IMG/VR virus record: IMGVR_UViG_3300036945_000436
Coordinates: 1 to 32,552 of that record
Reading direction: 5' to 3' (one strand)
DNA: 32,552 nucleotides
From: a virus
The first letter of the stretch is position 1. The number at the start of each line of letters is the position of its first letter. The notes below the pieces were generated by a model. That model saw nothing but the letters and a program-made list of their open reading frames with translations, was not told the origin of the DNA and did not search any database. The position numbers were made by a program, and so were the translations under genes. Positions 7,457 through 32,436 of the stretch are shown here, in pieces.

Positions 7457-7675
7457 TCATGCGGTTCTCCATACGCGCAACCCTAAATACGGGGTCTCAA
7501 TTCTCTGCCTGCATGTTAGGGAGATTCCTAACCTTTTTCCCACGCCATGAACCTGCCTAGCGCAGAGATCGGTGTTGACGCAGGGGACAAAGAACGAGCC
7601 ACCAACGTGCAGTTCATCCCACGGCACGATGATGCGAACCCCGTCTGGGTCTAAATCATTTACCCTCTTCGCCAT
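7457..7675 (-). CDS. Small conserved phage-type protein, unknown function
   Basis: 72 residues from the ATG at 7675, overlapping the end of the primase-helicase gene by 20 bp. The sequence has a GGSFFVPCVNT stretch and a C-terminal LGLRVW, a pattern I recall from small phage proteins near replication genes, but no function can be named. The Shine-Dalgarno is weak, so translation may be coupled to the upstream gene; a longer start at 7693 is possible. It is the last gene of the leftward cluster. The 18-bp palindrome at 7515-7532 lies inside it and is read as LGISLT. Confidence 0.7.
   Translation of the reverse strand: MAKRVNDLDPDGVRIIVPWDELHVGGSFFVPCVNTDLCARQVHGVGKRLGISLTCRQRIETPYLGLRVWRTA
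7515..7532. promoter_or_regulatory. Dispersed palindrome copy 1 (exact)
   Basis: GTTAGG-GAGATT-CCTAAC. Leftmost copy, inside the 7457-7675 gene, read as LGISLT. Confidence 0.9.
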
Positions 7676-10514
7676 CTGGCTCGTCCAGAACAATCGGTAT
7701 CTCGATGGTGTCCACGACGTTCATACGCATCTTGGTGCCTTTGGTCAGTCTGATCTTAGACTTCTTGACGCTGTACTTGGCTTTGAGCTCTGCAAGCACC
7801 GAGTTGTAGTTGACCTGCTGGTCGGCCAGCCAAGCCTTGAACGGGGTCGGTAATAGGAACAGCACGTTTAGGTCGGTCTCGTATCGGCCGATAATGTCGG
7901 CGGTCTTTGGCTGCTGGTCTGGCACTACAAGGTCATCAATCCCATTCCCGTTCTTCTTGCTGCGTCCGTCTATGGTGGACTTGATCTGCAGGATGCGGCC
8001 CAAATTCTCGTAGGTATATGCGGTCACCAAGTCCATTGGATCGAGCGACATATCGGAGCTGGTTGTCTTGTTGGCCTTGAGGATGTTCTTGATGATGTAG
8101 TCACGCAGCACGGGGATGTCGTAGTCCAGCAGCCCTAGGTGCTTACAGATCACGGCAGCTGCTAGCGAAGTAGCCACGGCGGCTGACCAGAAGCGGTTCT
8201 CTGGGCCAAGGTCTGCGGACACGTCGATCTTGCGCTGTAGCGTCTCCAGAAGCAGTTTTGTCTCAGCTAGGTTGGCCATGACGTACTGGACAAACAGGGT
8301 GCCTGCATGGCCGTAGTTGGTCTGGATGTTGGTACTGAATGCGTCGGTCTGCTTCTTGTCGGCCTTCTCGTTAAACAGCTTGCTTGTCTCGATCTCCAGC
8401 ACCCTCTGGGCCTCTGCTTTCGGCATTGCCTTTGCCATAGCCACCTTGTCGATCAGGCTGCAGTTCGCTGATGAGATGAATAGCAAGTTCCAAGGGTCTC
8501 CACGATAGCGCTCGGTGTTGCCTGTCGAAGCAAGGCGATTGCGCTGCTGACCCCCCGTAATCTGATAGATCATGTCCGAGGCATCTTGCGGCTTGATGTT
8601 GGTAATCTCGTCCATACACACAGGCAGGCTGTGCATGACATCGGCGCGGTTCATACGGGAGTTATGGGTATCGCGCTCTTGGAGCAGCAGCTTACGTGGG
8701 TCGCCCCATACCGATAGCGCTGCGTACTGGGCATGCGTCTTACCAAAGCCGGAGTCCTTCGACCAGATGTGCAGCAGGGCCGCATTGATCGGCAGAAACT
8801 TCATCAGCACCGAGCCGAAACCGACGCAGGTGATAAACTGGTGGAGCTCAAAGCCGGGACGGTTGTAGAAGTTCACGGCATCGCGCCACCCATCGAGCGT
8901 GCCTGCGGGCTCAAAGAACTCCAGCATGCCCCGTGTTGCGGCCGATGGCGCGTTAAACTCTACGCGGTCTTCGTAGATAACCTTGTCTCCTAGGACGAAG
9001 CCCTTGAAGTCTGGGAGCCAGCCGAACTGGCGGTGTGCATCATCTGCCTGCGTTGTGATCTGCAGGTTTTTAACCATAGATTGTGTAAAGCTCATGATCG
9101 CATCTACTTCCTTGTTGATAGCTATGACGCCGTTTGTGGCGAGGACTTTGCGAAATTCTTCCTTGGACGTAACGACGTAGAGGGGCACCACAAAAGACCT
9201 TACCCCGTCCCTAGGTAGATGGTGCCGCATCTCGACAATTTCACCCTGCTCGGGGTCGTTTAGGCGGCGCACTACGTACAGATCGTGGTGCCATATAATC
9301 CGCTCAGTTATCTCCCCGTCATCGTCAATCACACGGATGAACACGCCGCCGTCCTTACCGCGGAAATATGGGGTCGGATATTCTGGGATTTCGTAGACCC
9401 TAGGCGGCTCATTTGGTTTCTCTGGGTTATCGACAACGATGGTGTTGTCCTCTGGCGACGCTTCCGTGAACTGCTGGCCTAGAACGACTGGTGACTTGAT
9501 CTTGTTCCAGTTTGGGCAGCCTTGGCAGCCGCCCGGATTGTACTCCTCGAACCGAGCGCAGAGATACGGCCCCTTGATGAGGCCGGCCTTCTGCATAGCG
9601 GCATCTTCGTCGTAGTCCGGATGCCCCATAGAAACAGCACGCACGGCCTTTGGCATATCGGTGCAGTGCTTGGCGATAGATAGCGCTGCACGCCACATAG
9701 GCTCTGACAGTTCTGCCCTGTTCTCGATGCAGTGTGCCAGCTGGGCACAGCCTTTGCCGGCTATCGTCTTCTGCATGATGTTCTTAAACGAGGCTTCACG
9801 CTTACCGATCAGGGCATCCATCATGGCGTTGCTTGTCACCGCTGGGGAATATCGCCTAGCGGGCATGCTAGTCGGCAGACTACCGGCCACGGACTCGAGC
9901 AGAGCAGCAAAGGCAAAGAACTCCACTGGGGCCGGCGCGGCCATGCCGAAGAAGGTAACGGGTTTACGATCACCGCCCTTGTGGTTATTCGTACCCGGCA
10001 CCCGTAGGACACGGGCAGCATCGGCGGTCACTGTCTCGTCAGCCTTGAACCCTTGGGCCTTGGCGAGCGCCTTGAGTTTTTCCGCCACAGGGAGCCACGC
10101 CATGAAGTCCACAGGCGCAGTAAGCGGCCAGTAAACGTGCACACCATAGCCGGAGCTGACTAGGAACGGGCGGGGCAGCCCGTTGGCTTTGACGAAGGTC
10201 TTTAGCGCCACTATGGCGGCGTATTGGTCGGGGAACTCTTTTGGCTTTCCGGTCTTGAGGTTAACCCCGCAGTCCAAGTCCATGAAGAACGCCCGCATCT
10301 GCTTGACGTTATCGGCTTCGCGGGAGCCAGCTTCTTCAAATGTACCGAGGGCGAAGTAGGCATCCAAGCCGTTTTCGTCAAAGTTCATGGCAGCGTGCTC
10401 TAGCTGCTCTATGGTGTCGTAGAACTTTTGGATGCGTCTGTTCTCGCTAATAGCAAGAACGCAGTAGGAGCCTGCAGTCCCAAGAACGGACTGCAAAAAT
10501 GTCATTGTATCCAT
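7656..10514 (-). CDS. Primase-polymerase / superfamily 3-like helicase fusion
   Basis: 952 residues from the ATG at 10514. The N-terminal ~190 residues resemble an archaeo-eukaryotic primase (Prim-Pol): a D79-L-D81 metal-binding motif, SGYGVHVYW (121-129) with His126, and RVPGTNNHKGG (171-181). A small Cys cluster lies near 319-333. The C-terminal half has an ATPase core like DUF927-type helicases: Walker A SKDSGFGKT (585-593), Walker B PVCMDEI (631-637) and a sensor SSAN (681-684). The protein probably makes primers and unwinds DNA at the phage fork. A longer frame from a TTG at 10580 would translate both arms of a 13-bp inverted repeat, so the ATG at 10514 is preferred although its Shine-Dalgarno is weak. 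It is downstream of the putative ssDNA-binding gene and upstream of the small terminal gene. Confidence 0.88.
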   Translation of the reverse strand: MDTMTFLQSVLGTAGSYCVLAISENRRIQKFYDTIEQLEHAAMNFDENGLDAYFALGTFEEAGSREADNVKQMRAFFMDLDCGVNLKTGKPKEFPDQYAAIVALKTFVKANGLPRPFLVSSGYGVHVYWPLTAPVDFMAWLPVAEKLKALAKAQGFKADETVTADAARVLRVPGTNNHKGGDRKPVTFFGMAAPAPVEFFAFAALLESVAGSLPTSMPARRYSPAVTSNAMMDALIGKREASFKNIMQKTIAGKGCAQLAHCIENRAELSEPMWRAALSIAKHCTDMPKAVRAVSMGHPDYDEDAAMQKAGLIKGPYLCARFEEYNPGGCQGCPNWNKIKSPVVLGQQFTEASPEDNTIVVDNPEKPNEPPRVYEIPEYPTPYFRGKDGGVFIRVIDDDGEITERIIWHHDLYVVRRLNDPEQGEIVEMRHHLPRDGVRSFVVPLYVVTSKEEFRKVLATNGVIAINKEVDAIMSFTQSMVKNLQITTQADDAHRQFGWLPDFKGFVLGDKVIYEDRVEFNAPSAATRGMLEFFEPAGTLDGWRDAVNFYNRPGFELHQFITCVGFGSVLMKFLPINAALLHIWSKDSGFGKTHAQYAALSVWGDPRKLLLQERDTHNSRMNRADVMHSLPVCMDEITNIKPQDASDMIYQITGGQQRNRLASTGNTERYRGDPWNLLFISSANCSLIDKVAMAKAMPKAEAQRVLEIETSKLFNEKADKKQTDAFSTNIQTNYGHAGTLFVQYVMANLAETKLLLETLQRKIDVSADLGPENRFWSAAVATSLAAAVICKHLGLLDYDIPVLRDYIIKNILKANKTTSSDMSLDPMDLVTAYTYENLGRILQIKSTIDGRSKKNGNGIDDLVVPDQQPKTADIIGRYETDLNVLFLLPTPFKAWLADQQVNYNSVLAELKAKYSVKKSKIRLTKGTKMRMNVVDTIEIPIVLDEPDGEEGK

Positions 10515-10537
10515 TGCCGCCACTCTATCTGTTGAAA

Positions 10538-10579
10538 TGCCGCGACGAGGTGAGGTTATTTTTATCCCTCGTCGCGGCA
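10538..10579. repeat. 13-bp inverted repeat upstream of the primase gene
   Basis: Arms 10538-10550 and 10567-10579 are perfect reverse complements (TGCCGCGACGAGG) around a 16-nt AT-rich loop. It lies between the preceding stop (10593) and the primase ATG (10514). The T-run after the stem is short on the minus strand, so it could be a weak terminator or an mRNA stem that sets the primase level. Confidence 0.8.
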
Positions 10580-10592
10580 AGCCTGTTAAGGA

Positions 10593-11508: not shown

Positions 11509-11739
11509 TTAGTTATCGGTTTCGTTGTCGAAGTCCATTTCCAACTGCGCCGATTTCTTCGGCGCGTTGACTAGTGCGTCTGCCAGCTTAGGCAGGTCGA
11601 ACCTGTAGGTGTTACCCACCTTCAGATAGGTGTCTCTCGGTACCGTGCCGTTGCGAAGCCATGTACGCACGGTTGCTACCGATACGACAAAATGCTCCGC
11701 GACGCCTTCGATAGTAACAAAAGGTTTGTCGGTCATCAT
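11509..11739 (-). CDS. Small helix-turn-helix protein (excisionase / MerR-like)
   Basis: 76 residues. The fold reads as a MerR/excisionase-type winged helix: VEGVAEHF-like helix, VSVATVRTWLRNG recognition helix (about 20-32), then a wing (YRFDLPKLADAL). The ATG at 11739 overlaps the stop of the upstream gene (ATGA), and a second in-frame ATG follows at once. It could be an excisionase, a small repressor or a replication-control protein. No integrase is seen in this window, so an excisionase role is unsupported. It is one of three HTH candidates here that might bind the dispersed palindrome. Confidence 0.75.
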   Translation of the reverse strand: MMTDKPFVTIEGVAEHFVVSVATVRTWLRNGTVPRDTYLKVGNTYRFDLPKLADALVNAPKKSAQLEMDFDNETDN

Positions 11740-12178: not shown

Positions 12179-12207
12179 TATATAGTAGTATCTAATGCAC
12201 TAGTCAA
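12179..12207 (-). promoter_or_regulatory. Sigma-70 promoter for the primase operon
   Basis: On the minus strand: -35 TTGACT (12207-12202), 17-bp spacer, -10 TATATA (12184-12179), with a predicted start near 12172, about 23 nt before the ATG at 12149. The -35 box overlaps the last codons and stop of the helicase gene. Confidence 0.8.
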
Positions 12208-13735
12208 GTAACTCTTTATAAAGATCGACGACCCTAATATGCACGTCTATCTTCTCGTCGAGCATCCTGTAAACCCGACGCTCTACACCCGATCCCTGTA
12301 ACTGGACAACTGTACACTTGTTTACCTGCCCCTTGCGGTGCACCCGCGCGTTAGCCTGCGCATAGGTTTCGAGTGATGATGTTGGCGCCCACCAGACGAC
12401 TGTATCCGCCGCAGTGAGTGTGACGCCGTGCGCAGCGGCCTGTGGTTGGATAACCAATACCCGTGGGTTGGGCTGCTGCTGAAACTGTTTGAATATCTCG
12501 GTTCTGGTGCCAGCATTCACATCGCCGTTGATGACGGCATTTGTGATGCCATCCTTGGTCAGCTGCGCGGTCAGCATGTTGATGACGTGCTTGAAAGGCA
12601 CGAAGACCAGCACCTTGTGAGAGGTTTCGGCGATGACTTCCTTGAGGACATTGTAGCGGTTGTTGATGTCGAACTGGACGGTGTCGCCTGACTCGGTGTA
12701 ACTTGCACCGGCCGATATTTGCAGGAGTTTGCCCATCATCACAGCGGCGTTTACTGCCGTGATTTGCTCGCCAGCGACTTCCATAACCATCTGCTTCTTT
12801 AGGCGGTTGTAGTATAGGTCTTGCTGCTTGGTCAGTTCCACATCCCGCTTAACGTATGTCATGTCAGGCAAGTCGAGGCATTCTTCCTTGGTGAACCGTA
12901 TCGCCGGCTGCAGTGCACGGTGCACAATGTACTCGGAGTTTTCTTTGGGCTTCCAGCGGTACTGCGATAACTTAATCATAACCATGTCTTTCCAAGCGGC
13001 AGCGAACCTAGGCACACCCATTGGGTTGACGAGCTTGGCCAAGCCGTAGGCGTCCTCGGGCCCCTGCGCCGCAGGTGTACCCGTCATCATCCACAGCCAA
13101 GTGTCTGGCCCTACCAGTGAGTTGAGCACCTTCCAGCGCTTGCTCTGGGCGTTCTTGTAGTGGCTCGCCTCGTCCACAATGATGAGGTCGTAGCCTGCCG
13201 CAGCTATATCATCTTTTACGATCTCAACGCCGTCGTAGTTGATGATAAGGAAGTCAGCCTTACCCGCTATGATCTTCTTACGCTTGGCTGCTGTGCCGTA
13301 GGCGATGTCGACTGTCCGGTGCATGGCAAACGAGAACAAGTCCGCGCGCCATGCGCTGTCCATAATCGAGAGCGGGCAGATGACAAGAACACGTTTGACG
13401 ATGCCCTGCTTCATCAGGAAGTCCGCGGCCCAGATTGCGCTGGCCGTCTTGCCAGTGCCCGCTTCGTTGAAGCAGAATGCCCTGCGGTTCATAGTCAGAA
13501 AGGCTGCCGTAGTGCGCTGATGCGACATCGGGGTAAATTTACCCGTCCAGTTGTAACGGTTCTCGATGGGCGACGGCACGTTGATATTGAGCCCGCGAAG
13601 TGTGTGTGCCTCGTTCACACCCCAGTGTACAACAACCTCGTGCTCGTTAACTGCTTTGCTTTTTGGGATGATCGTAGTGACTTGTTTTGGATTGCGTAGC
13701 CGTAACAGCAACGCCTTATTGTCGATGATCTGCAT
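12200..13735 (-). CDS. SNF2-family (superfamily 2) DNA helicase/translocase
   Basis: 511 residues. Motifs in order: Walker A NEAGTGKTAS (90-99), Walker B/DEAH-like box IIVDEAS (185-191), TGTPAAQ (218-224), and a C-terminal helicase motif VI of the form ARVHRKGQ. Spacing and the RxHRxGQ form are typical of SNF2-type ATPases found in phage replication modules, where they translocate on DNA, probably to remodel forks or support recombination. Length is normal for a single-chain SF2 core with no extra domain. The Shine-Dalgarno is AGGAGA. An exact dispersed palindrome sits 15 nt before the ATG. Confidence 0.93.
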   Translation of the reverse strand: MQIIDNKALLLRLRNPKQVTTIIPKSKAVNEHEVVVHWGVNEAHTLRGLNINVPSPIENRYNWTGKFTPMSHQRTTAAFLTMNRRAFCFNEAGTGKTASAIWAADFLMKQGIVKRVLVICPLSIMDSAWRADLFSFAMHRTVDIAYGTAAKRKKIIAGKADFLIINYDGVEIVKDDIAAAGYDLIIVDEASHYKNAQSKRWKVLNSLVGPDTWLWMMTGTPAAQGPEDAYGLAKLVNPMGVPRFAAAWKDMVMIKLSQYRWKPKENSEYIVHRALQPAIRFTKEECLDLPDMTYVKRDVELTKQQDLYYNRLKKQMVMEVAGEQITAVNAAVMMGKLLQISAGASYTESGDTVQFDINNRYNVLKEVIAETSHKVLVFVPFKHVINMLTAQLTKDGITNAVINGDVNAGTRTEIFKQFQQQPNPRVLVIQPQAAAHGVTLTAADTVVWWAPTSSLETYAQANARVHRKGQVNKCTVVQLQGSGVERRVYRMLDEKIDVHIRVVDLYKELLD

Positions 13736-13750: not shown

Positions 13751-13768
13751 GTTAGGGTTTGCCCTAAC
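13751..13768. promoter_or_regulatory. Dispersed palindrome copy 2 (exact)
   Basis: GTTAGG-GTTTGC-CCTAAC, 15 nt upstream of the helicase ATG. On the minus strand its GTTAGG half supplies the TAG stop (13766-13764) of the preceding gene. Confidence 0.95.
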
Positions 13769-14692: not shown

Positions 14693-15147
14693 AGTGTAGT
14701 ACGCCCTTTATATATGTCACATACGCGCTGTTCGGATATACCGTACACTGCGGCCAATTCCCGACCTCGTTCTCCAGACGCTCTCCGTGCACGGATTTCA
14801 GTAACCACCTCTGGGGTGAGCACTTGCGTACCCCCCCGACACTTTTGTGCCATATCCCTAGCATTGTCTTGCATGGTGCCCCACCGTAAGTTGTCCACAT
14901 GGTTATTATGTGGGTTATCATCAATGTGCATAGCCACACCAAGTAGTGGTCTATCCCCCTTAAACGCAGACAGTACCAAGTGGGATACAGGGAAATCTAC
15001 CCGCGGGTTAGTAGACAACCTAACTACAGCTCTCCAGCCAGTACGCATTGGGGTTAATACCTTATGCGTTTTAGCGTTACGTACAGTACCCACCGAGGAT
15101 ACTTCATAAGCGTACCCCGGTATAGCCCGCCACTCTAGCTCAAGCAT
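14689..15147 (-). CDS. HNH homing endonuclease (NUMOD4-HNH type)
   Basis: 152 residues from the ATG at 15147, with GGAG six to seven bases upstream inside the polymerase 3' end. The N-terminus WRAIPGYAYEVSSVGTVRN is a NUMOD4 motif. The HNH core follows (HLVLSAF, then AMHIDDNPHNNHVDNLRWGT, about 73-91). The C-terminal LAAVYGISEQRVCDIYKGRT is a helix-turn-helix DNA-binding part. Free-standing enzymes of this type cut alleles that lack them and spread by repair. It sits exactly between the polymerase and Cas4-like genes, overlapping the first by 8 bp and the second by 4 bp, which suggests clean insertion into the operon. A longer frame to 15294 has no support. Confidence 0.9.
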   Translation of the reverse strand: MLELEWRAIPGYAYEVSSVGTVRNAKTHKVLTPMRTGWRAVVRLSTNPRVDFPVSHLVLSAFKGDRPLLGVAMHIDDNPHNNHVDNLRWGTMQDNARDMAQKCRGGTQVLTPEVVTEIRARRASGERGRELAAVYGISEQRVCDIYKGRTTL

Positions 15148-17358: not shown

Positions 17359-17952
17359 TTACTCCTCGTTCAGTGGTGTATCGAGGTGTTCGTAGAACAC
17401 GTTCACGTTCTTGGCGTAGTAGACTGTGCTGGCGATCTGTTGATCCCCACTTGCATAGACTTTCAGCGCAGCTACTTCCCCATTCTTGTGCATGGTGCTT
17501 AGGCGCCCGCCTACCTTCTGGATGAGGTCAGGGATGCCGGAGAGTGGAATGCTCTGTTTTGCGATAGCCTGCGTCAGCTCTTGTACTGTCCACGGGCGTA
17601 GTTGCTCCAGAACCGAGGTAAACACCCCAACGAAATCGGTGGGGTGCGTCTTTGTAGGCTCTGGGATGTTAGGTACATTCCTAACAACGTCGGCCACGCG
17701 GGATAGGACTTCGACACGAACTGCGCGCCAGCGCGATGGGTGATGCTTAGTATGTTCAGAAGCATAGTTGTCTGTAGCCCATACACGCAGGGTATCGCCC
17801 ACCTCTAGGGCGTGGCGCTGTACATCCACTACGGATAGAAATACTTGCTCGTTGTCTGGTGTAATCGCAAAGCCTAGGCCCGCCCGAGCAGTGAAGTTGT
17901 AGGTCGCTTCCAGTTGTTGCAGTTCCGTCGGTTTAAAATAGTTCATGCTCAT
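17359..17952 (-). CDS. Hypothetical protein, possible OB-fold plus winged helix
   Basis: 197 residues. Residues 25-60 (GLGFAITPDNEQVFLSVVDV, then LEVGDTLRVW) read like a cold-shock/OB-type strand pattern. The C-terminal part (WTVQELTQAIAKQ ... KVGGRLSTMHKNGEV) reads like a winged helix. Together these suggest a nucleic-acid-binding protein; both assignments are by eye and tentative. The ATG overlaps the stop of the upstream gene (ATGA). A dispersed palindrome lies inside the gene and is read as VRNVPN. Confidence 0.75.
   Translation of the reverse strand: MSMNYFKPTELQQLEATYNFTARAGLGFAITPDNEQVFLSVVDVQRHALEVGDTLRVWATDNYASEHTKHHPSRWRAVRVEVLSRVADVVRNVPNIPEPTKTHPTDFVGVFTSVLEQLRPWTVQELTQAIAKQSIPLSGIPDLIQKVGGRLSTMHKNGEVAALKVYASGDQQIASTVYYAKNVNVFYEHLDTPLNEE
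17668..17685. promoter_or_regulatory. Dispersed palindrome copy 3 (exact)
   Basis: GTTAGG-TACATT-CCTAAC inside the 17359-17952 gene, read as VRNVPN and far from any start codon. Confidence 0.9.
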
Positions 17953-20735: not shown

Positions 20736-20753
20736 GTTAGGCTTAAGCCTAAC
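20736..20753. promoter_or_regulatory. Dispersed palindrome copy 4 (exact, fully symmetric)
   Basis: GTTAGG-CTTAAG-CCTAAC, 24 nt upstream of the ATG at 20711. The spacer is also palindromic, so all 18 bp are symmetric. Confidence 0.95.
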
Positions 20754-21243: not shown

Positions 21244-21633
21244 TCACGCTCCTCTAAGAACCCAGTAGACGCTCTCATCGACGCGCATACCGACACCCTC
21301 TACCTTGGTCTGCGGTGGGTTTACCTTCATCATAGATAGCACGGCAATACGCTCCTGCATCCACGCTGGTAACTCGTCCGTGGTGTTATACACACCCTCT
21401 ACCTCGCTGTCGGCGCTACCAATACCAAGGCAAACAACCTCGATAGTAGAGCCGACGAAGATGCGGTAGACGTTCTCAATATCGCCCGTCCACTGGGCTT
21501 TGAGTTCACTTAGTCGCTTACGTGCGCTTGGCATATCAGTGACACGTGTTAGGCTTGGCCCTAACGCCGCCCGCTCAATGTCGTCATGCCTTATGGCGTT
21601 CACATCGAAGATGTGCCCTACCCTGCTCTTCAT
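21244..21633 (-). CDS. Hypothetical protein with shared C-terminal module
   Basis: 129 residues from the ATG at 21633, overlapping the upstream stop (ATGA). The C-terminal ~40 residues (LPAWMQERIAVLSMM...VEGVGMRVDESVYWVLRG) closely parallel the end of the neighbouring 300-residue protein, so the two genes share a duplicated module. Function unknown. The exact palindrome at 21548 is read as LGPSLT. Confidence 0.75.
   Translation of the reverse strand: MKSRVGHIFDVNAIRHDDIERAALGPSLTRVTDMPSARKRLSELKAQWTGDIENVYRIFVGSTIEVVCLGIGSADSEVEGVYNTTDELPAWMQERIAVLSMMKVNPPQTKVEGVGMRVDESVYWVLRGA
21548..21565. promoter_or_regulatory. Dispersed palindrome copy 5 (exact)
   Basis: GTTAGG-CTTGGC-CCTAAC inside the 21244-21633 gene, read as LGPSLT. 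Confidence 0.9.
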
Positions 21634-24066: not shown

Positions 24067-24375
24067 TTACTCCGATGTCATTAAAGTTAGTTTGATTGCC
24101 ACCACGCGGTCGGCCTTGATGATGAGGGTCTCACTGTCATTGAACAGGTTTAGATACCCCTCCGATGCCATTTCCGCTGTTAGGTGTTTCCCTAACGCTG
24201 GCCCTGCGGTAATCATCATGCCCACCATTTCGCCGTTTGTCAGCTGCACCTCGGCGAGGCTGTATTGCTTCTTGTAAGGGCTGCCGCCAGTCTGGGCTGT
24301 GGTTGCGCTTCCTAGCTGGCTTGTGGTGCCGTAGCTGCCTAGGTTGCCTAGGTTTGGGTAGGTTATTTTAGACAT
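24067..24375 (-). CDS. Hypothetical protein
   Basis: 102 residues from the ATG at 24375 (AAGGAG seven bases upstream, inside the preceding gene's end); the frame to 24417 is not supported. The N-terminal 30 residues are Gly/Ser/Thr/Gln-rich (NLGNLGSYGTTSQLGSATT), then a compact domain. The palindrome at 24179 is read as LGKHLT. Confidence 0.7.
   Translation of the reverse strand: MSKITYPNLGNLGSYGTTSQLGSATTAQTGGSPYKKQYSLAEVQLTNGEMVGMMITAGPALGKHLTAEMASEGYLNLFNDSETLIIKADRVVAIKLTLMTSE
24179..24196. promoter_or_regulatory. Dispersed palindrome copy 6 (exact)
   Basis: GTTAGG-TGTTTC-CCTAAC inside the 24067-24375 gene, read as LGKHLT; 116 nt upstream of the 24062 start. Confidence 0.9.
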
Positions 24376-24977: not shown

Positions 24978-26167
24978 TACATATCCCTTCCCTTGATGTG
25001 AACCGTAGTGCCACAGTCAGGCACAGCAGACTTGTTGTCCAAGATGACCCACAGCAGCTGGTGCTGCCACTCGCCCCACGACCCACCAAGATAACCATCG
25101 GTCAGCACGATCACGCACTGTGCCTTGATCTGCTTGTCTTGGATGTATGCGGGGACGCACTCGATCATAGTGCCGCCGCCACCCTTAGGCTTGGTAGACT
25201 TGGCAAGGTTGCTTACTTCCTCGCCCTGATAGACTTCATCACCACACACCTCCGTGTCCCAATACAGCAGGCGGATAGCCTCGGGGTGGACGGTTTCGGC
25301 GATGCCAACCACCTCGGACAGGAACGATACTAACTGCGGCCCCCCGATAGAACCCGACGTGTCGATAGCCACAACAATCTCGCCAATCGTCTCGGAGATA
25401 CCGCTCGGCATATACATACCCGCGCCGATGTATCGGCGGTTCGGCCTGCGCCACGTGGAGTAGTCAGACCCTGTGCATGTGCTAGTAATGAAGTCACGAA
25501 GAACCTCGCGCCAGTTTATCTGCGGCTCGAGCAAGGCTTCAAGGTCGCGGTCGCCACCGCTTCCCATCTTGCCAGCCAGTAACGCACCTTGACGGATAGC
25601 CTCGTCAATATCGCGGGCCAACTCATCGCGCTCGGCCACAGTCATTTCCTGTGCGTCATCCCAGCCGTGCTCATCGAAGCCAGTGCCACCGCCTTGGCCC
25701 CCGCCCTTCTTCAGATCGTGGAACACCTGCGCGCTGTCCCATGCCCGATACTTAGTATCGAAGCAGCCCATCTTTAGCTCGCCCGTCATGGCAGCAAAGC
25801 CGTCTTTGATGTTGTCGTCATACAGTTTGACGTTGATCACGAAGTCACAGGCTCTGTTAGCCAGATCGTGGTTCTCGTCATACATCCAGCGCCACGTGGT
25901 CAGGTGTCGGTATAGCTTGTGGTAGCACTCGTGCAGGACAAGGAAGCGCAGTTCTGCATCGTTCAGCTTGTCCACAAAGACACGGCCATACACCTCGTCC
26001 CGCCCGTTGGTGTAGGCGGTAGGACATTTCCTAACATCGCTCTCGACACGGCGGTCGCCGATCATCAGGATGCCCGCAAGCGCGGCGTATCTCGTGTTGG
26101 CCATGATGTCGATCACGGCTTTCTGTAGGCGCTGTTCGGCGCTCAGCATTCCATTCGCATTAAACAT
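24977..26167 (-). CDS. VWA / metallopeptidase-like (CobT-like, DUF2201-type) protein
   Basis: 396 residues from the ATG at 26167 (GGAG six bases upstream). The N-terminal half has H79-E80-C81-Y82-H83, an HExxH zinc-peptidase motif (LHECYHKLY). The C-terminal half has a VWA MIDAS motif, D269-T-S271-G-S273, with VLTDG (D357). This pairing is the DUF2201 layout found in partners of MoxR AAA+ ATPases, and the MoxR-type gene lies about 0.6 kb upstream. Together they may remodel or activate a protein complex; phage CobS/CobT-like pairs are widespread but unexplained. A degenerate palindrome at 26018 is read as VRKCPT. Confidence 0.85.
   Translation of the reverse strand: MFNANGMLSAEQRLQKAVIDIMANTRYAALAGILMIGDRRVESDVRKCPTAYTNGRDEVYGRVFVDKLNDAELRFLVLHECYHKLYRHLTTWRWMYDENHDLANRACDFVINVKLYDDNIKDGFAAMTGELKMGCFDTKYRAWDSAQVFHDLKKGGGQGGGTGFDEHGWDDAQEMTVAERDELARDIDEAIRQGALLAGKMGSGGDRDLEALLEPQINWREVLRDFITSTCTGSDYSTWRRPNRRYIGAGMYMPSGISETIGEIVVAIDTSGSIGGPQLVSFLSEVVGIAETVHPEAIRLLYWDTEVCGDEVYQGEEVSNLAKSTKPKGGGGTMIECVPAYIQDKQIKAQCVIVLTDGYLGGSWGEWQHQLLWVILDNKSAVPDCGTTVHIKGRDM
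26018..26035. promoter_or_regulatory. Dispersed palindrome, degenerate copy
   Basis: GGTAGG-ACATTT-CCTAAC: one change in the left arm; inside the VWA-type gene, read as VRKCPT. Confidence 0.65.
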
Positions 26168-26354
26168 TCTTGTCTCCATTTGTGTATTCTCTGATGTTGC
26201 GTCTCCACGAATAGATGACAGCCGTGGACACGTTGTGTTTTGTAGCGGCCGCATTGACACCTTCGGTATCGGCATCGTCGATAATCTTGCGCCGTGTGTC
26301 GTTGGTTAGGCCGTAGTCGTGGTTGTAAATCAGCTCGAGTGGATCAGTTTTCAT
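26160..26354 (-). CDS. Small helix-turn-helix protein
   Basis: 64 residues. AAATKHNVSTAVIYSWRRNI (about 36-55) is a transposase-type HTH motif, without any catalytic domain. It overlaps the upstream gene by 11 bp and the downstream start. It could be a small regulator of this operon, a third candidate binder for the dispersed palindrome. Confidence 0.75.
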   Translation of the reverse strand: MKTDPLELIYNHDYGLTNDTRRKIIDDADTEGVNAAATKHNVSTAVIYSWRRNIREYTNGDKNV

Positions 26355-26714: not shown

Positions 26715-26732
26715 GTTAGGGTTTCCCCTAAC
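26715..26732. promoter_or_regulatory. Dispersed palindrome copy 7 (exact, extended)
   Basis: GTTAGG-GTTTCC-CCTAAC, 26 nt upstream of the ATG at 26688. The flanks GGTT and AACC (26711-26736) extend the symmetry by four bases on each side. A perfect TATAAT lies just upstream on the minus strand (26744-26739), so the copy may overlap the transcription start; the matching -35 box is weak. Confidence 0.9.
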
Positions 26733-26751: not shown

Positions 26752-27849
26752 CTACTTTTTGTCCGCAGCGAACAAGTAACCGTTACTCATAGCCCATTGG
26801 GTGAAGGCTTTGTTGGTCATGACCAACGCCTGACGGCCATACTTCGGTGCACGGACACCATTGGCGAACATACCCTGCGCCTCTTTGTCCAATCTGTTGC
26901 AATAAATCATCCAGTTGTCGATCCAGTCTTTCTCGATGGTGGCCAGCGTCCGATACACAACCATACACACGGCGGCTGCCGATGATGGAACCTTGGCATT
27001 CAGCGGGTCTTTCTTGATGCTCTCGAGTGAGGGCAGCTGATCCGCCAGCTTGACGAACGCCATCAAGTCCATCGCGCCACGTTCCCCGATAGTGCCCATG
27101 AGCGCAGCGGTGATAGTCTGGTCGTCCATTACACCCCGTTCCTTCAAGATGTCAGACGCCGCTTCCAATGAGCGAGGCGTGACAAACGCCGCGCGCTGCT
27201 GCTTGGGGTGGAAGATGTATGGGTTGTCGTCGGGGTTGTTGTAGTCGTCGAACCCGTGGAACAGCTGCGGGTTATCCTTGCACCAACCAAGCAGGGTGTG
27301 ATCCACGCTGTTGTTGATAGCCCACTCGATCCAGTCCATGTTGGACGGCTTCTTACCCGTCACGACAGTGATGCGGTTGCGGGCGTGTGGCGGCAACAAG
27401 TCACCGACACCCTCTGCGCCAAGGTTGGTAGTGGCAAAGATGATGCTGTCAGGGTGCAGCGTGTAGCCACCGATCTTGCGCTCCAGCATGAGGCGCAGCA
27501 GGGCATTCTTCACGGATGGGTTAGCCTTACCATACTCGTCCACCATCAGGATGATTGGCCCGCCGTGATGTGCGCCAAGCTCTTCGTTGGTGGCATAGGC
27601 CACATAGGCTGCGTCGCTGCCTGCCTCTGCGATACGTGGTAGGGTGATGTCGCCCAAGTCCTTGGTGGTGCAGTCGAAGTAGCACGCCGTATGGTTCGGC
27701 AATGCGGCCGACAGGGTTTTGAGCAAGGATGATTTGCCCGTGCCCATGTGGCCCTGCACCAAGGTGGTGCGCTTGTGGCCCGTGGCCTTGATGAGGTTTG
27801 CGATCTGATCGAGGTTCAGTGCATACATCGAGATTGCGTTGTTAGCCAT
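26752..27849 (-). CDS. MoxR-type AAA+ ATPase (CobS-like)
   Basis: 365 residues, GGAGA upstream. Walker A GHMGTGKSS (33-41), Walker B ILMVDEYG (100-107), sensor 1 FATTNLGAEG. This is the MoxR/CobS class, which works with a VWA protein; that partner is encoded at 24977. Such pairs use ATP to insert metals or to remodel protein complexes in cells; the phage target is unknown. The start is 23 nt downstream of palindrome copy 8. Confidence 0.92.
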   Translation of the reverse strand: MANNAISMYALNLDQIANLIKATGHKRTTLVQGHMGTGKSSLLKTLSAALPNHTACYFDCTTKDLGDITLPRIAEAGSDAAYVAYATNEELGAHHGGPIILMVDEYGKANPSVKNALLRLMLERKIGGYTLHPDSIIFATTNLGAEGVGDLLPPHARNRITVVTGKKPSNMDWIEWAINNSVDHTLLGWCKDNPQLFHGFDDYNNPDDNPYIFHPKQQRAAFVTPRSLEAASDILKERGVMDDQTITAALMGTIGERGAMDLMAFVKLADQLPSLESIKKDPLNAKVPSSAAAVCMVVYRTLATIEKDWIDNWMIYCNRLDKEAQGMFANGVRAPKYGRQALVMTNKAFTQWAMSNGYLFAADKK

Positions 27850-27872: not shown

Positions 27873-27890
27873 GTTAGGATTTAGCCTAAC
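27873..27890. promoter_or_regulatory. Dispersed palindrome copy 8 (exact)
   Basis: GTTAGG-ATTTAG-CCTAAC, 23 nt upstream of the MoxR-type ATPase ATG. Spacer identical to the copy at 29113. Confidence 0.95.
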
Positions 27891-27893: not shown

Positions 27894-28136
27894 TTAATTT
27901 AGTTCGTTGCGCTTCGACTTGCAGCGTGCGCAGTCGCATTGCTCGCTGGATTTGCTGCGGTAGTAGTTCTTTACCTGCACCGCGAGTTCCATGATGATGT
28001 GCATGGCGTCTTCTTCACTGTCGGCATACTGGGTTACTATAAGCCCGCACACGGACACTATGCCAAGCAGCGACATTTCCTCCGGTAGCACATCGGTTAC
28101 GTCGCCCAAAATTTCAGCAGTCACTGTTTTAGTCAT
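27894..28136 (-). CDS. Hypothetical small protein with C-terminal Cys cluster
   Basis: 80 residues with AAGGAG upstream. The N-terminal two thirds are hydrophobic to acidic; the end, QCDCARCKSK, has three cysteines that could bind a metal. Between the MoxR-type ATPase and the DUF3150-like gene, so it may belong to that module. Family not recognised. Confidence 0.72.
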   Translation of the reverse strand: MTKTVTAEILGDVTDVLPEEMSLLGIVSVCGLIVTQYADSEEDAMHIIMELAVQVKNYYRSKSSEQCDCARCKSKRNELN

Positions 28137-28154: not shown

Positions 28155-28172
28155 GTTAGGGTTAATCCTAAC
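28155..28172. promoter_or_regulatory. Dispersed palindrome copy 9 (exact)
   Basis: GTTAGG-GTTAAT-CCTAAC, 18 nt upstream of the ATG at 28136. Confidence 0.95.
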
Positions 28173-28183: not shown

Positions 28184-29098
28184 TCACCAATCCAACGACG
28201 GCAGCGACTTGATCGCCTCGTCGACAGCGTTCTTGGTAGCGCGGCGCAGGTATGCGTCATCCTTCACGGACTCTGCGTTGACACCGCGGAACGCAGCCGA
28301 CAGCTTGCGCTGCATCAGCTGCATATTCATATCGCCCGTCAGGTTACACGTCTCCATCAGGTCGAGCACCTCGAGCATACGATCAAAGACAGATGCGTAA
28401 ATGCGCGGTGACTTGCCTTCCTCGGTCTTGTCGGACAGCTGGCGCGATAGCGTGGTCAGGATGTCGAACAGGCGCTGCCAGATGTCCTTCATGGCGTTGC
28501 CAAGCTGCGAGGTGTAGTGCGTCTCGTATTGCTCCTTGAGTGAGGTAAACGCATCGTTGGCGATGTCCAACCGCCAGTCGCCAGCATCGGGCAACGGGAT
28601 GTAGTTGAAGCGGAAGGTGAACTTGCTCCGCAATTCGTCCATGTTAGGATACTCCCTAACATCAAACAGGTCGCCCAGCTTGGCCTGCGCCGCTGCCACC
28701 TCAAGGTCATACTGCGCAAGGAACGCCTCGACCATGCGGAAGAACTCGGCTTGCAGGGCGGTCATGTGCTGGTGGTATGCGAAGTATTTCGGCGTTGGCA
28801 GCAGGCGTGGCCCCGTGTCAGACCAAGGCAGCGTGCTGTTGTAATGCCAGTTCCTTACATTGGCCGAGAACTTGACCAACGCATCCAGTTCTTCGCACGA
28901 GCCGAGTAGGCTCTTGGTCACGCGCGCTACGCCCTTGTCGGCATTGTTCGCCGTGGTGACATCCTCGCTTGCGCGCTTGTCCTGCTTGCGGCCCGTCCAG
29001 ACGCCGATGCCCAACTCTACTTGCATGGACGAGGACGAGATGGATGCAGCCTTGGGGGCAAAGTTCAGTTCCATTTGGGTCATGTGGTTCGTATTCAT
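28184..29098 (-). CDS. DUF3150-like protein
   Basis: 304 residues with AAGGAG upstream. Mostly helical, with LLPTPKYFAYHQHMTALQAE, LGDLFDVREYPNMDEL and NYIPLPDAGDWRLDI, a pattern I recognise from phage DUF3150 proteins, which commonly occur beside the MoxR/VWA pair. A scaffold or substrate-adaptor role in that module is inference. The palindrome at 28643 is inside the gene and read as VREYPN. Confidence 0.8.
   Translation of the reverse strand: MNTNHMTQMELNFAPKAASISSSSMQVELGIGVWTGRKQDKRASEDVTTANNADKGVARVTKSLLGSCEELDALVKFSANVRNWHYNSTLPWSDTGPRLLPTPKYFAYHQHMTALQAEFFRMVEAFLAQYDLEVAAAQAKLGDLFDVREYPNMDELRSKFTFRFNYIPLPDAGDWRLDIANDAFTSLKEQYETHYTSQLGNAMKDIWQRLFDILTTLSRQLSDKTEEGKSPRIYASVFDRMLEVLDLMETCNLTGDMNMQLMQRKLSAAFRGVNAESVKDDAYLRRATKNAVDEAIKSLPSLDW
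28643..28660. promoter_or_regulatory. Dispersed palindrome copy 10 (exact)
   Basis: GTTAGG-ATACTC-CCTAAC inside the DUF3150-like gene, read as VREYPN. Confidence 0.9.
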
Positions 29099-29112: not shown

Positions 29113-29130
29113 GTTAGGATTTAGCCTAAC
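29113..29130. promoter_or_regulatory. Dispersed palindrome copy 11 (exact)
   Basis: GTTAGG-ATTTAG-CCTAAC, 14 nt upstream of the ATG at 29098, in the leader of the transcript from the 29214-29242 promoter. Confidence 0.95.
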
Positions 29131-29256: not shown

Positions 29257-29565
29257 TTAGCCCACACCTGAACGAGGTTCTTGTAACATCGCCCCATACA
29301 ATCTGATCAGGTCAATGTTACGACGCAGCGTATCTGCGTGTTCCTGCATGGTTGGAAACGACGCTAGCCCTTTTATATACTCCTCGAGGTTTTTCAGATC
29401 GGACAGCCACGTGCCCCTATAGTCTTCGGTATATGCACGGATAACACTGCTAGAACCAATCCCGATACGCCACAGGCTGACCTCTACGTTGATGTTGCAT
29501 ATGAACTCGGCACTGCTACCCCCGCTATTGAATAGGGGCTTCACTTCGTCCTCGTTCTCGGTCAT
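29257..29565 (-). CDS. Hypothetical protein, tandem paralog C
   Basis: 102 residues; paralog of the adjacent 29562-29867 product. Shared blocks: MTE-x(4)-VxPLF near the start, FICNI, ExSLW, RxYxEDxxGxWL and a helical end. The two overlap by 4 bp (ATGA). Function unknown. It ends the right-hand operon; the gap to the next gene carries the 29214 promoter. Confidence 0.78.
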   Translation of the reverse strand: MTENEDEVKPLFNSGGSSAEFICNINVEVSLWRIGIGSSSVIRAYTEDYRGTWLSDLKNLEEYIKGLASFPTMQEHADTLRRNIDLIRLYGAMLQEPRSGVG

Positions 29566-29867
29566 GGCTTCACCCCTAGCATTTGCATATACACGCGGAT
29601 GGCCTCATAGTTGCGGGCTATGGCGGAAAGGCACTGGACTGTGTTCTTCGCGTTGATTTCGTTCAATCTATCTACGTGTGCTCTTACTTTCTCCTCACTC
29701 TCCAGCCAAATACCGTGGTTGTCCTCTGCGTAAATTCGCAGCGTAGGCGACCAGCCTACGCTCCACAGGCTAAGTTCATCGCCTATGTTGCAGATGAACC
29801 TTGGGTTCTTGCTTAGTTCAGGCCCCGGCCTGAACAGGGGTTCTACTTCGCTGTCGCTCTCGGTCAT
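29562..29867 (-). CDS. Hypothetical protein, tandem paralog D
   Basis: 101 residues; the other copy of the pair with 29257-29565, with the same order of blocks (VEPLF, FICNI, ELSLW, RIYAEDNHGIWL). Its ATG overlaps the stop of the zinc-ribbon gene (ATGA). Confidence 0.78.
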   Translation of the reverse strand: MTESDSEVEPLFRPGPELSKNPRFICNIGDELSLWSVGWSPTLRIYAEDNHGIWLESEEKVRAHVDRLNEINAKNTVQCLSAIARNYEAIRVYMQMLGVKP

Positions 29868-30067
29868 GTTGGCACTACCTTGTTCAGTCCGCGCAGCTGT
29901 GACTTGTCTGTCACTAGCGTGGCGCCTTGCTTATGGGCGACGGGTGCGACGCACCAGCCTGCCCGCTCTGATCGTGCCGACTTGTCACCGCATGGCAGGC
30001 ATAGGGTATATCCTAACGCCGCCCGCTTCGGGCTGAACTCTTCACCGCAGTTGTTGCACTTATTCAT
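29864..30067 (-). CDS. Small zinc-ribbon protein
   Basis: 67 residues with GAGGAG upstream. CNNC (C4, C7) and CLPC (about 23-26) form a four-Cys zinc ribbon (CNNCGEEFSPKRAALGYTLC-LPC), followed by a basic tail. Probably binds nucleic acid or protein. A degenerate palindrome overlaps the ribbon (read LGYTLC). Overlaps the upstream gene by 8 bp. Confidence 0.78.
   Translation of the reverse strand: MNKCNNCGEEFSPKRAALGYTLCLPCGDKSARSERAGWCVAPVAHKQGATLVTDKSQLRGLNKVVPT
30000..30017. promoter_or_regulatory. Dispersed palindrome, degenerate copy
   Basis: CATAGG-GTATAT-CCTAAC: two changes in the left arm; inside the zinc-ribbon gene in the LGxxLT frame. The weakest copy, and it may be chance. Confidence 0.4.
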
Positions 30068-30392
30068 CGTTGCTCTCCTCTGTTAGGTTACTTCCTAACA
30101 CCCACGGCACGAAGCACCGCAGGTATGTGTCGATCAGATCGGCTTCCTCGGGTATAAGCGGGACGTCACCCCAGTTGCCGCGTATTTTACCATACGCCTG
30201 CTCATTGTCCCGCACTGGTAGGGTAAAGATGTCCCACTCGTTCATGTTACCGCTCACGACGTGGATACGCAGTAGGTGTGGTCTCATTACTGTAGGCTCA
30301 GTTCTATACCACAGGTCGAACCGCTCCACCCCGCCGATGTATTTAAGGTCGCGCCGATCCATAAGGTCGAGTGCTGTTCTTGGTTCAAACAT
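30060..30392 (-). CDS. Hypothetical protein
   Basis: 110 residues with AAGGA upstream. Contains DRRDLKYIGGVERFDLWYRT and GNMNEWDIFTLPVRDNEQAY; acidic C-terminus. Not recognised. The palindrome at 30082 encodes LGSNLT near its end and is 14 nt from the next start. Confidence 0.72.
   Translation of the reverse strand: MFEPRTALDLMDRRDLKYIGGVERFDLWYRTEPTVMRPHLLRIHVVSGNMNEWDIFTLPVRDNEQAYGKIRGNWGDVPLIPEEADLIDTYLRCFVPWVLGSNLTEESNDE
30082..30099. promoter_or_regulatory. Dispersed palindrome copy 12 (exact)
   Basis: GTTAGG-TTACTT-CCTAAC, 14 nt upstream of the ATG at 30067 and inside the 3' end of the upstream gene (LGSNLT). Confidence 0.95.
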
Positions 30393-30585: not shown

Positions 30586-30939
30586 TCACACCTCCATTCC
30601 AAAAATATCAGCGGCAGTAGTCCACTTGTTAGCGGCCGCGTAATCCTGCATTGGATCGTTAGGTTCTTCCCTAACAACCTCCACCAACAGGTCGACGTCG
30701 TAGCAGTCGCAGGCCAGCACGCCATACTCTGCAGCGTCATGGTATCGGGCGAAGTAGGTGTCATCTTTGATGACCCCGACGAGGGGGCGTTTCCCGTGGC
30801 CTACGTCCTCGATGGTATCCACAAGCCAGCGGTTGAAGGCGCGTGCTTCCCCATCGTCAAGGTTATCGGTGTCGCCATACAGCACGGGTGCGATCCAGTG
30901 TGCGGGCAGGGATAGTGTGATGGTCTCAAAGCGTGTCAT
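30586..30939 (-). CDS. Hypothetical protein
   Basis: 117 residues with AAGGAG upstream. The layout (TITLSLPAHWIAPVLYGDTD, then ARAFNRWLVDTI, FARYHDAAEYGVLACDCYDV) resembles small phage/plasmid proteins of unknown role. The palindrome at 30658 is read as VREEPN. Its stop is directly before the next Shine-Dalgarno. Confidence 0.75.
   Translation of the reverse strand: MTRFETITLSLPAHWIAPVLYGDTDNLDDGEARAFNRWLVDTIEDVGHGKRPLVGVIKDDTYFARYHDAAEYGVLACDCYDVDLLVEVVREEPNDPMQDYAAANKWTTAADIFGMEV
30658..30675. promoter_or_regulatory. Dispersed palindrome copy 13 (exact)
   Basis: GTTAGG-TTCTTC-CCTAAC inside the 30586-30939 gene, read as VREEPN; 73 nt upstream of the 30584 start. Confidence 0.9.
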
Positions 30940-30990: not shown

Positions 30991-31008
30991 GTTAGGCTTT
31001 ATCCTAAC
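30991..31008. promoter_or_regulatory. Dispersed palindrome copy 14 (exact)
   Basis: GTTAGG-CTTTAT-CCTAAC, 51 nt upstream of the ATG at 30939. On the minus strand GTTAG gives the TAG stop of the 31004-31207 gene. A small hairpin (GCCCT-GCTT-AGGGC, 30968-30981) lies between it and the next ribosome binding site. Confidence 0.95.
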
Positions 31009-31207
31009 GCATTGTTACTTCGTCGCGTGTCCAGTTCTTGTTGGACTTCAGGAATGCAGTGATCGGGCTTTCCCTGCCATACACCTCGGCGACCTGCCAA
31101 GCCTTCGGGTGGAAGCCCATCGTGCCGCCCTTGTCTGCTGGTCGCACAATCGTGCTCTTTACGAGGCGCACAGTCTCGAGAACCATCTTACCTTCTCCGT
31201 ATGTCAT
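31004..31207 (-). CDS. Hypothetical small protein
   Basis: 67 residues with AAGGAGGA upstream. Basic, with KGGTMGFHPKAWQVAEVYGR; not recognised. Its TAG stop is part of palindrome copy 14. Confidence 0.7.
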   Translation of the reverse strand: MTYGEGKMVLETVRLVKSTIVRPADKGGTMGFHPKAWQVAEVYGRESPITAFLKSNKNWTRDEVTMR

Positions 31208-31208: not shown

Positions 31209-31355
31209 TCATTCCTCCTTGCCCGTTAGGGTATTTCCTAACAGTGCCGCTTGCTCGGCCAACTCCATTGTCGGCCACCATCCACCGACCTGTGTCCCAC
31301 ATCTATGGAATACACCGAAGCGCCCGTAACATTCTGAAGCGTAGTATTTAGGCAT
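31209..31355 (-). CDS. Hypothetical very small protein
   Basis: 48 residues from the ATG at 31355, with AAAAGGAGAG upstream; the longer frame to 31472 overlaps its neighbour and is rejected. Contains GRFGVFHRCGTQVGGWWPTM. The palindrome at 31225 is read as LGNTLT near its end. The stop is two bases before the next ATG. Confidence 0.7.
   Translation of the reverse strand: MPKYYASECYGRFGVFHRCGTQVGGWWPTMELAEQAALLGNTLTGKEE
31225..31242. promoter_or_regulatory. Dispersed palindrome copy 15 (exact)
   Basis: GTTAGG-GTATTT-CCTAAC, 17 nt upstream of the ATG at 31207 and inside the upstream gene (LGNTLT). Confidence 0.95.
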
Positions 31356-31370: not shown

Positions 31371-31388
31371 GTTAGGCTCGTGACTAAC
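31371..31388. promoter_or_regulatory. Dispersed palindrome, degenerate copy
   Basis: GTTAGG-CTCGTG-ACTAAC: one change in the right arm; 15 nt upstream of the ATG at 31355. Supplies the TAG stop of the 31384-31704 gene. Confidence 0.75.
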
Positions 31389-31704
31389 ACGAGCAGTCTT
31401 TGCCGAACTTCTCGCACATGAAGCAGTAGTATGCAGTCGCATCGGCCACGCGATCCTGCACGGGATCGTCACTTCTCACGCCGCCGAAGGTCTTGTAGGT
31501 CTGGATGGCAAAGCCCGCGCCATAGATGCCTTGGCGCTGATACATACTGCGCGGGCGGATTGGGCGCACTTGTGGCGGAGCCACGTCGTTAGGTATTTCC
31601 CTAACAGCCTTGCCCGCAGGGCGGCGCACGACATAGGCACGGCCATCTGCGATAGCAGCGGGCACAAGGTCGGCAAGCAAGGCACGGAGTTCGTCTTTGG
31701 TCAT
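31384..31704 (-). CDS. Hypothetical protein with C-terminal Cys cluster
   Basis: 106 residues, GAGG before the ATG at 31704. The end (YYCFMCEKFGKDCSC) has four cysteines, a possible zinc site. The middle YQRQGIYGAGFAIQTYKTFGG is unassigned. It is the first gene after the strong promoter at 31798-31826. The palindrome at 31588 is read as VREIPN. Confidence 0.75.
   Translation of the reverse strand: MTKDELRALLADLVPAAIADGRAYVVRRPAGKAVREIPNDVAPPQVRPIRPRSMYQRQGIYGAGFAIQTYKTFGGVRSDDPVQDRVADATAYYCFMCEKFGKDCSC
31588..31605. promoter_or_regulatory. Dispersed palindrome copy 16 (exact)
   Basis: GTTAGG-TATTTC-CCTAAC inside the 31384-31704 gene, read as VREIPN. Confidence 0.9.
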
Positions 31705-31729: not shown

Positions 31730-31747
31730 GTTAGGAAAGACCCTAAC
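31730..31747. promoter_or_regulatory. Dispersed palindrome copy 17 (exact)
   Basis: GTTAGG-AAAGAC-CCTAAC, 25 nt upstream of the ATG at 31704, in the leader of the strong leftward promoter. A GGCC-GAAA-GGCC hairpin (minus-strand RNA, 31766-31755) precedes it. Confidence 0.95.
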
Positions 31748-31797: not shown

Positions 31798-31826
31798 AGT
31801 ATAGGGCAAATGCTATCCTATGTCAA
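31798..31826 (-). promoter_or_regulatory. Strong leftward sigma-70 promoter
   Basis: On the minus strand: consensus -35 TTGACA (31826-31821), 17-bp spacer, -10 TATACT (31803-31798), giving a leader of about 85 nt before the ATG at 31704. It probably drives the right-hand leftward genes. Confidence 0.85.
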
Positions 31827-31861: not shown

Positions 31862-31879
31862 GTTAGGAAGTATCCTAAC
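31862..31879. promoter_or_regulatory. Dispersed palindrome copy 18 (exact)
   Basis: GTTAGG-AAGTAT-CCTAAC, 35 bp upstream of the -35 box of the strong leftward promoter; not in a gene or leader of that promoter. Confidence 0.95.
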
Positions 31880-32123: not shown

Positions 32124-32158
32124 CGACCCCCCAACTGGTAACAATACAAAAAAGTAGT

Positions 32159-32183: not shown

Positions 32184-32258
32184 GCACTAGTAACATTACT
32201 GGATAGCACCAAATAGCAGAACAATACTTCTGTGTATGGACAAGCGTTTTATGTGGCG

Positions 32259-32285
32259 CGCGCACCGCTGCTTGAGAACTGGTGT
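32259..32285 (+). repeat. 27-bp iteron-like repeat, copy 1
   Basis: Begins CGCGCACCGCTG and ends GAGAACTGGTGT; runs directly into the palindrome at 32284. Copies follow at 32394, 32454 and 32521. Confidence 0.92.
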
Positions 32286-32301
32286 TAGGGACTTTCCTAA
32301 C
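32284..32301. promoter_or_regulatory. Dispersed palindrome copy 19 (exact)
   Basis: GTTAGG-GACTTT-CCTAAC, fused to the end of iteron copy 1. It is the exact reverse complement of the copy at 32419. Confidence 0.95.
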
Positions 32302-32313
32302 AGAAGAAAGTGC

Positions 32314-32389
32314 TTGACATCACTCGCTTTGGATGGCATACACTACGTGTATGCCACCTGACACCGCCCGCCCCCGCTGGCGGTTTTTT
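32314..32389 (+). promoter_or_regulatory. Promoter-inverted repeat-terminator cassette
   Basis: TTGACA (32314-32319) is followed by a 9-bp perfect inverted repeat (GGCATACAC 32335-32343 / GTGTATGCC 32347-32355) that overlaps where a -10 box would lie (CATACA at 17 bp, or TACACT at 19 bp, both weak). A terminator follows: ACCGCC (32363-32368), 10-nt loop, GGCGGT (32379-32384), then six T (32384-32389). The inverted repeat may be an operator, and the predicted transcript only about 40-50 nt. Confidence 0.55.
32363..32389 (+). terminator. Rho-independent terminator (rightward)
   Basis: Six-bp GC-rich stem and six T residues, directly before iteron copy 2. Confidence 0.7.
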
Positions 32390-32393
32390 GTTT

Positions 32394-32420
32394 CGCGCAC
32401 CGCTGCTTGAGAACTGGTGT
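32394..32420 (+). repeat. 27-bp iteron-like repeat, copy 2
   Basis: Identical to copy 1 over 27 bp; also runs into a palindrome (32419). Confidence 0.92.
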
Positions 32421-32436
32421 TAGGAAAGTCCCTAAC
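32419..32436. promoter_or_regulatory. Dispersed palindrome copy 20 (exact)
   Basis: GTTAGG-AAAGTC-CCTAAC, fused to iteron copy 2; exact reverse complement of the copy at 32284. Confidence 0.95.

Follow-up and report, generated by a model that had tools for sequence, protein, structure and literature searches.

A stretch of 32,552 nucleotides from an uncultivated phage (virus record IMGVR_UViG_3300036945_000436, a 32.5-kb fragment analyzed at its full length and hereafter called the window) carries the palindrome GTTAGG-N6-CCTAAC in 20 exact copies, which raises the question of what reads it and with what effect. A sequence-only reading of the window had proposed that a protein does so, and this view is supported since the arms of the palindrome are kept while the spacers drift, the palindrome and a single protein family vary in step, and a rule pairing amino acids with bases predicts cases not used to derive it. 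That family is F1, an unnamed, fast-evolving helical protein of 156 to 209 aa whose gene, in related phages, is found close to where the early region begins. From these comparisons, F1 is most likely the reader.

All 20 exact copies were found where they had been placed earlier, and the reversed pattern, scanned in the window as a control, gave 0 matches. Three additional sites have one mismatch (15007, 26018 and 31371), the first of them missed by the sequence-only reading. When up to 2 mismatches are allowed, the window contains 26 matches against a mean of 0.81 and a maximum of 4 in shuffled sequences, in agreement with the claim of an excess far above chance. The two-mismatch copies (17498, 23356 and 30000) are indistinguishable from chance, so that 26018 and 31371 stand among the degenerate copies reported earlier and 30000 does not. 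The spacer between the arms measures 6 bp in every site and is AT-rich as described, with about 29% G+C in the 20 exact sites (hand count) against about 53% in the genome. The giant gene (5-7372) is indeed free of palindromes, even with 2 mismatches, and exactly ten copies, counting 31371, are followed by a start codon at 14-26 nt (31730, 31371, 31225, 30082, 29113, 28155, 27873, 26715, 20736 and 13751), as had been read. The association with start codons is nevertheless partial, since about 9 copies in the window are intragenic. The spacing of the copies is clustered, with a coefficient of variation (CV) of 1.25.

Relatives were collected as 35 contigs via the primase and 80 contigs via the MoxR-like ATPase. 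No DNA match to the window was found in cultured phages, and the primase-helicase of the window is 30% identical to that of Pseudomonas phage Rollin and 24% to that of Rhizobium phage RHph_TM27A. Bacterial genomes, scanned once through the ATPase, gave no relatives, and a search of open-licence PMC papers found nothing on this phage group or on such dispersed palindromes. Of the relatives examined, most carry a dispersed palindrome of their own, 17 or 18 bp long and mostly in 5 to 10 or more copies, with about 5 to 20 copies per phage across the family. The commonest class among distant relatives is GTTAGTG-N3-CACTAAC, and the others are GTTAGGGA-N-TCCCTAAC, GTTAGGGAATTCCCTAAC, GTTAGTC-N4-GACTAAC, GTTATAC-N3-GTATAAC, TGTAGTGA-N-TCACTACA, TTTACGGAATTCCGTAAA and TTTACGCA-N2-TGCGTAAA.

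At site 7515, both arms are kept in 8 of 9 variant sequences from relatives with 72-98% identity, while the spacer changes, and at site 13751 the arms are kept in all variants from relatives at 77-98% identity. The starts of the ATPase, p304 and helicase genes carry differing palindromes within near-identical flanks, as in the gap between p304 and the ATPase gene, which reads 'ggcttctaaGTTAGGGACTCCCTAACaacta' in contig L107 and 'ggcttctaaGTTATACGCCGTATAACaactt' in L122 with flanks almost alike. Judged by these alignments, palindromes are exchanged in place between lineages. The sequence-only reading would have abandoned a functional element had related phages lacked the motif at the same gene starts; the relatives hold it there. 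A passive mobile or repetitive extragenic palindromic (REP)-like sequence with no phage function would also produce many near-identical copies per genome, some of them intragenic, but it seems hardly credible here: the gene-start positions are common to relatives, the arms are kept while the spacers drift, the palindrome switches in concert with F1, and no longer repeat unit was found around the sites beyond one or two flanking bases.

In 13 phage loci with 133 sites, 64 sites fall 5-60 nt upstream of a start against 12 expected, and 34 are located inside called genes against 111 expected. Every site of the ten near-full genomes is in the early half, and the sites of the window's family are dense near F1. 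Among 478 sites (window, L060-L141 and L184-L258), the sole flanking signal is a T before the palindrome in 61% and an A after it in 87%. These bases extend the symmetry unequally, which could come from an A-rich leader context or from a direction-dependent contact.

Three helix-turn-helix (HTH) proteins of the window had been put forward as readers, and none was retained. The one at 11509-11739 has a near-identical helix across palindrome classes, G022 and G024 included, and shows no covariation with the motif (partial r = -0.10, p = 0.73), and those at 19991 and 26160 are not among the families present in at least 5 compared genomes. The genomes G022 and G024 have different palindromes (GTTAGGGA-N-TCCCTAAC and GTTATAC-N3-GTATAAC, respectively), and their F1 proteins are 31-32% identical, against 73-98% in 14 other compared families. 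A profile search found F1 members in nearly all contigs that include the start of the early region, where they precede the ATPase gene by a few kb; no F1 was found in cultured phages. In the close relative L060, F1 is located at 4783-5385 and p304 at 10001.

In 39 non-redundant loci, the distance between F1 proteins predicts the distance between motifs beyond what is predicted by the ATPase and p304 (partial r = 0.51, p = 0.0003). With palindrome width left out, the value for F1 is 0.42, and that for p304 given F1 is -0.01. The 13 near-full genomes also gave a partial r of 0.51 for F1 (p 0.0015). For base 7 of the half-site, the top alignment column is residue 109 (L068 protein numbering), and for base 6 it is the adjacent residue 108, with residue 105 also high; residues 105-109 fall in one long predicted helix (90-117 in the L068 model). 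Asp at residue 109 occurs with G at base 7, and Lys or Arg with C, and the sequence patterns follow the last two bases, being GA[RK]..D with TG, GSK..D with GG and GSR..K with TC. Lys/Arg-G and Asp-C contacts are the chemically usual ones. The rule was then applied to contigs from a fresh scan with the F1 alignment, outside the training set, where about 18 distinct helices have a determinable motif and 18 of 18 fit D109/G7 or K109/C7 (for example, L251 and L254 have K109 with GTTAGTC, and L248, L250 and L253 have GSK..D with GTTAGGG). Binding of F1 to the palindromes is likely.

The predicted models of F1 are all-helical or nearly so (pLDDT 90 and 84). No match to F1 was found in Pfam, NCBIfam or PDB sequences, and fold searches with Foldseek and VIA in PDB and BFVD gave nothing convincing, with no Foldseek match under E 0.001 and a best VIA match of Z 4.8 over a short C-terminal stretch. 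PHROG matches are weak and scattered, three members matching phrog_12501 'HTH DNA binding protein' (best E 0.0008).

The sequence-only reading had left undecided whether the palindrome is recognized as DNA or as an RNA hairpin. About 40 of 45 F1 genes have a site within 330 nt upstream of the ATG, mostly 110-170 nt away. A strong sigma-70 promoter is visible near the F1 start in L092, L101, L107, L120, L122 and L131, and at such promoters the site usually precedes the -35 box. Site 31862 of the window is likewise upstream of a -35 box (TTGACA-N17-TATACT at 31826-31798). Among sites of the tested F1-family classes, 293 are exact and 21 have one mismatch, all 21 being transversions with 0 G-U wobbles, although 4 wobbles would be expected under uniform substitution in this small sample. 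Two palindrome classes are perfect and spacer-free. The evidence favours recognition of DNA because wobbles are missing, spacer-free palindromes exist and sites stand upstream of promoters. A hairpin just before the Shine-Dalgarno (SD) sequence, bound or cut in early-gene mRNA and controlling translation or stability, would suit the many sites that stop 10-25 nt short of a start codon, immediately ahead of the SD. However, we consider it rather unlikely, since the mismatched sites include neither wobbles nor transitions, the two perfect classes are loop-less, copies exist within genes, and those upstream of the F1 promoter fall outside the F1 transcript. The protein reader proposed earlier thus stands while its RNA variant is weakened. 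The single mismatches of RHph_TM27A are mostly transitions (23 of 35), so the argument from transversions is limited to the F1 family.

We suggest that F1, a phage-encoded and all-helical protein by prediction, would read dispersed palindromic DNA operators, probably as a homodimer with one subunit per half-site. Its helix 90-117 (L068) would touch bases 6-7 of the half-site, the putative contact pairs being Asp109/G7, Lys/Arg109/C7, Ala105/T6 and Ser105-Lys106/G6. On sites between early genes, F1 would most likely block the transcribing RNA polymerase, and near its own gene it would most likely limit its own expression, so that early transcription would be damped or shut off in the manner of stoperators. 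Control of elongation is suggested because the operators lie between operon genes without promoters; both repression as the sign and elongation as the step of regulation are inferred. If F1 and all the sites of one genome change jointly, related phages would become blind to each other's F1. Immunity of a prophage is not indicated because no integrase, resolvase or ParA was found (PF00589, PF00239 and PF13614 unmatched in 14-16 records).

An activator or antiterminator role of F1, with sites switching on early or middle genes singly, is another way to explain why sites precede individual genes, and the location upstream of the -35 box at visible F1 promoters is a possible activator position. 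However, the 478 sites showed no promoter enrichment in the 60 nt before them or the 80 nt after them, and there is mostly little space for a promoter between site and SD, which makes this role unlikely. Instead of regulating genes, the sites could also serve as anchors of a nucleoid-like, partition or replication complex. In the distant RHph_TM27A, 48 similar sites over the 47 kb examined are more evenly spaced than random (CV 0.51 versus 0.97), which speaks for this reading, but in the window's family the late half has no sites and their density is high around F1, those of the window are clustered, and ParA was not found; we regard anchoring as quite improbable.

Several points weigh against F1 dimers acting as roadblocks at these operators. 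The F1 of the window itself is unseen, since L060 maps it about 1.2 kb past the right edge, and covariation is what DNA binding by F1 is argued from, because F1 has no database family. The motif is also correlated with p304 (partial r 0.57) and with the helicase (0.47) in the 13 genomes. We excluded p304 as reader because it is 94% identical in G022 and G024 despite their different palindromes; the helicase, for which the comparison between these two genomes is not available, is a weaker alternative. The residue columns were picked among many, and their permutation p values of 0.003-0.007 are uncorrected for column number. The held-out cases are mostly of the common D109/GTTAGTG type, with only two distinct K109 cases. 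At residue 108 the base-6 rule fails in L101 and L225, and the TTTACG-class proteins are weak matches to the F1 profile and depart from the rule of residue 109. Considering all this, we find it fairly probable that F1 dimers at the operators work as stoperator-like roadblocks of early transcription.

Table 1. Copies of the palindrome and other features of the window
Feature	Position	Strand	Remarks
Palindrome, exact	7515..7532		Inside small gene 7457-7675; arms kept in relatives (see text)
Palindrome, exact	13751..13768		15 nt before SNF2-like helicase gene 12200-13735; same spot in relatives, GTTAGTG or TTTACGG palindromes in distant ones
Palindrome, one mismatch	15007..15024		Intragenic; not preserved in the single aligned relative
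Palindrome, exact	17668..17685		Intragenic
Palindrome, exact	20736..20753		24 nt before gene 20526-20711
Palindrome, exact	21548..21565		Intragenic
Palindrome, exact	24179..24196		Intragenic
Palindrome, one mismatch	26018..26035		Intragenic
Palindrome, exact	26715..26732		26 nt before gene 26344-26688
Palindrome, exact	27873..27890		23 nt before MoxR-like ATPase gene; relatives hold class-specific palindromes there
Palindrome, exact	28155..28172		18 nt before gene 27894-28136
Palindrome, exact	28643..28660		Inside p304; in-frame reading VREYPN
Palindrome, exact	29113..29130		14 nt before p304 gene
Palindrome, exact	30082..30099		14 nt before zinc-ribbon-like gene 29864-30067
Palindrome, exact	30658..30675		Intragenic
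Palindrome, exact	30991..31008		51 nt before gene 30586-30939
Palindrome, exact	31225..31242		17 nt before gene 31004-31207
Palindrome, one mismatch	31371..31388		15 nt before gene 31209-31355
Palindrome, exact	31588..31605		Intragenic
Palindrome, exact	31730..31747		5' leader of gene 31384-31704
Sigma-70-like promoter, TTGACA-N17-TATACT	31798..31826	-	Between sites 31862 and 31730; read from sequence
Palindrome, exact	31862..31879		Upstream of -35 box of the 31798..31826 promoter
Palindrome, exact	32284..32301		Non-coding right end, adjoins 24-bp repeat
Palindrome, exact	32419..32436		Non-coding right end, adjoins 24-bp repeat
Small HTH protein	11509..11739	-	Tested as palindrome reader, rejected
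MoxR-like ATPase	26752..27849	-	Anchor for finding relatives

Some other features deserve mention. A second repeat, CCAGTTCTCAAGCAGCGGTGCGCG, is present in three exact copies and one variant at the right end of the window (32552-32250, - strand), twice directly after a palindrome, and a related repeat occurs in L098 (at 7329 and 7377) just before the site upstream of its F1. The adjacent genes at 29257-29867 (102 and 101 aa) resemble tandem paralogues, and the giant gene weakly matches the polyvalent-protein domain LPD39 (E 0.005, not reaching the curated cut-off). In L126, the usual dispersed palindrome is missing and the F1 position (4715-6337) is occupied by a tandem pair of related proteins of a different type, perhaps a case of system replacement. 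Pseudomonas phage Rollin (L142) has four copies of AAAAGGTAG-N7-CTACCTTTT, which may be a parallel system. The cultured Rhizobium phage RHph_TM27A (L143, record 14000-60894) shares the same genome plan, and its 48 sites are GTTACC/GGTAAC palindromes with at most 1 mismatch, spread over both halves. The first larger gene of its early region, EVB29_028 (242 aa), matches no family clearly.

If the proposed role of F1 is true, this would be a second and apparently unrelated stoperator-type solution, in a widespread, apparently non-temperate family of uncultivated phages. The joint change of specificity in a regulator and a dozen scattered operators has long been a puzzle, and near-identical pairs with different operators (G022/G024), together with many natural F1/palindrome pairs, would make it directly testable. 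The rule of residue 109 is a falsifiable recognition code in a protein family that is nameless in the databases searched. More tentatively, and with a good chance of not holding, F1 may be a new family of sequence-specific DNA-binding proteins with an undescribed helical fold and a simple base code, which would drive the genome-wide, concerted rewriting of operators in virulent phages and lead to mutual blindness of close relatives without lysogeny.

The operators of lambda CI/Cro and of LexA are made of palindromic half-sites read by a homodimer, and switches of specificity between residue and base are known for them. The sites described here are similar in being two-half-site palindromes with a proposed homodimer reader, but they are many, dispersed and intergenic instead of few and overlapping promoters, and F1 belongs to another protein family. 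In cluster K mycobacteriophages, the part of the description that we draw on reports the SAS repeats, asymmetric, containing the ribosome-binding sequence and within 3-7 bp of the start, and the ESAS repeats, which contain 17-bp imperfect inverted repeats; that part does not name a reader protein (PMC3203893). As with those repeats, which in that part stand just before the start codons of non-structural genes, copies of the palindrome are found just before start codons. Unlike the SAS as described there, the palindrome precedes the SD, start-proximal copies usually ending 10-25 nt before the start, and also occurs within genes and upstream of promoters.

A further comparison is with the stoperators of cluster A mycobacteriophages, for which control of elongation was proposed in phage L5 (PMC9283540). 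The cluster A stoperator is an asymmetric 13-bp site oriented with transcription, its reader binds as a monomer through two DNA-binding domains, one of them an HTH, and the phages are temperate (PMC9283540, PMC6550527). The sites of the present family are instead palindromes of 17 or 18 bp with asymmetry at only one flanking base, F1 is an apparently unrelated helical family without a recognized HTH, and integrase and ParA were not found in the 14-16 records searched. What is shared is the architecture: cluster A genomes have 20-30 short sites, many of them in short intergenic gaps, with one repressor, and here too one dispersed site is present in many copies, many of them between genes. The stoperator motif and the repressor of cluster A diverge together (PMC6550527), and the palindrome and its candidate reader F1 do the same.

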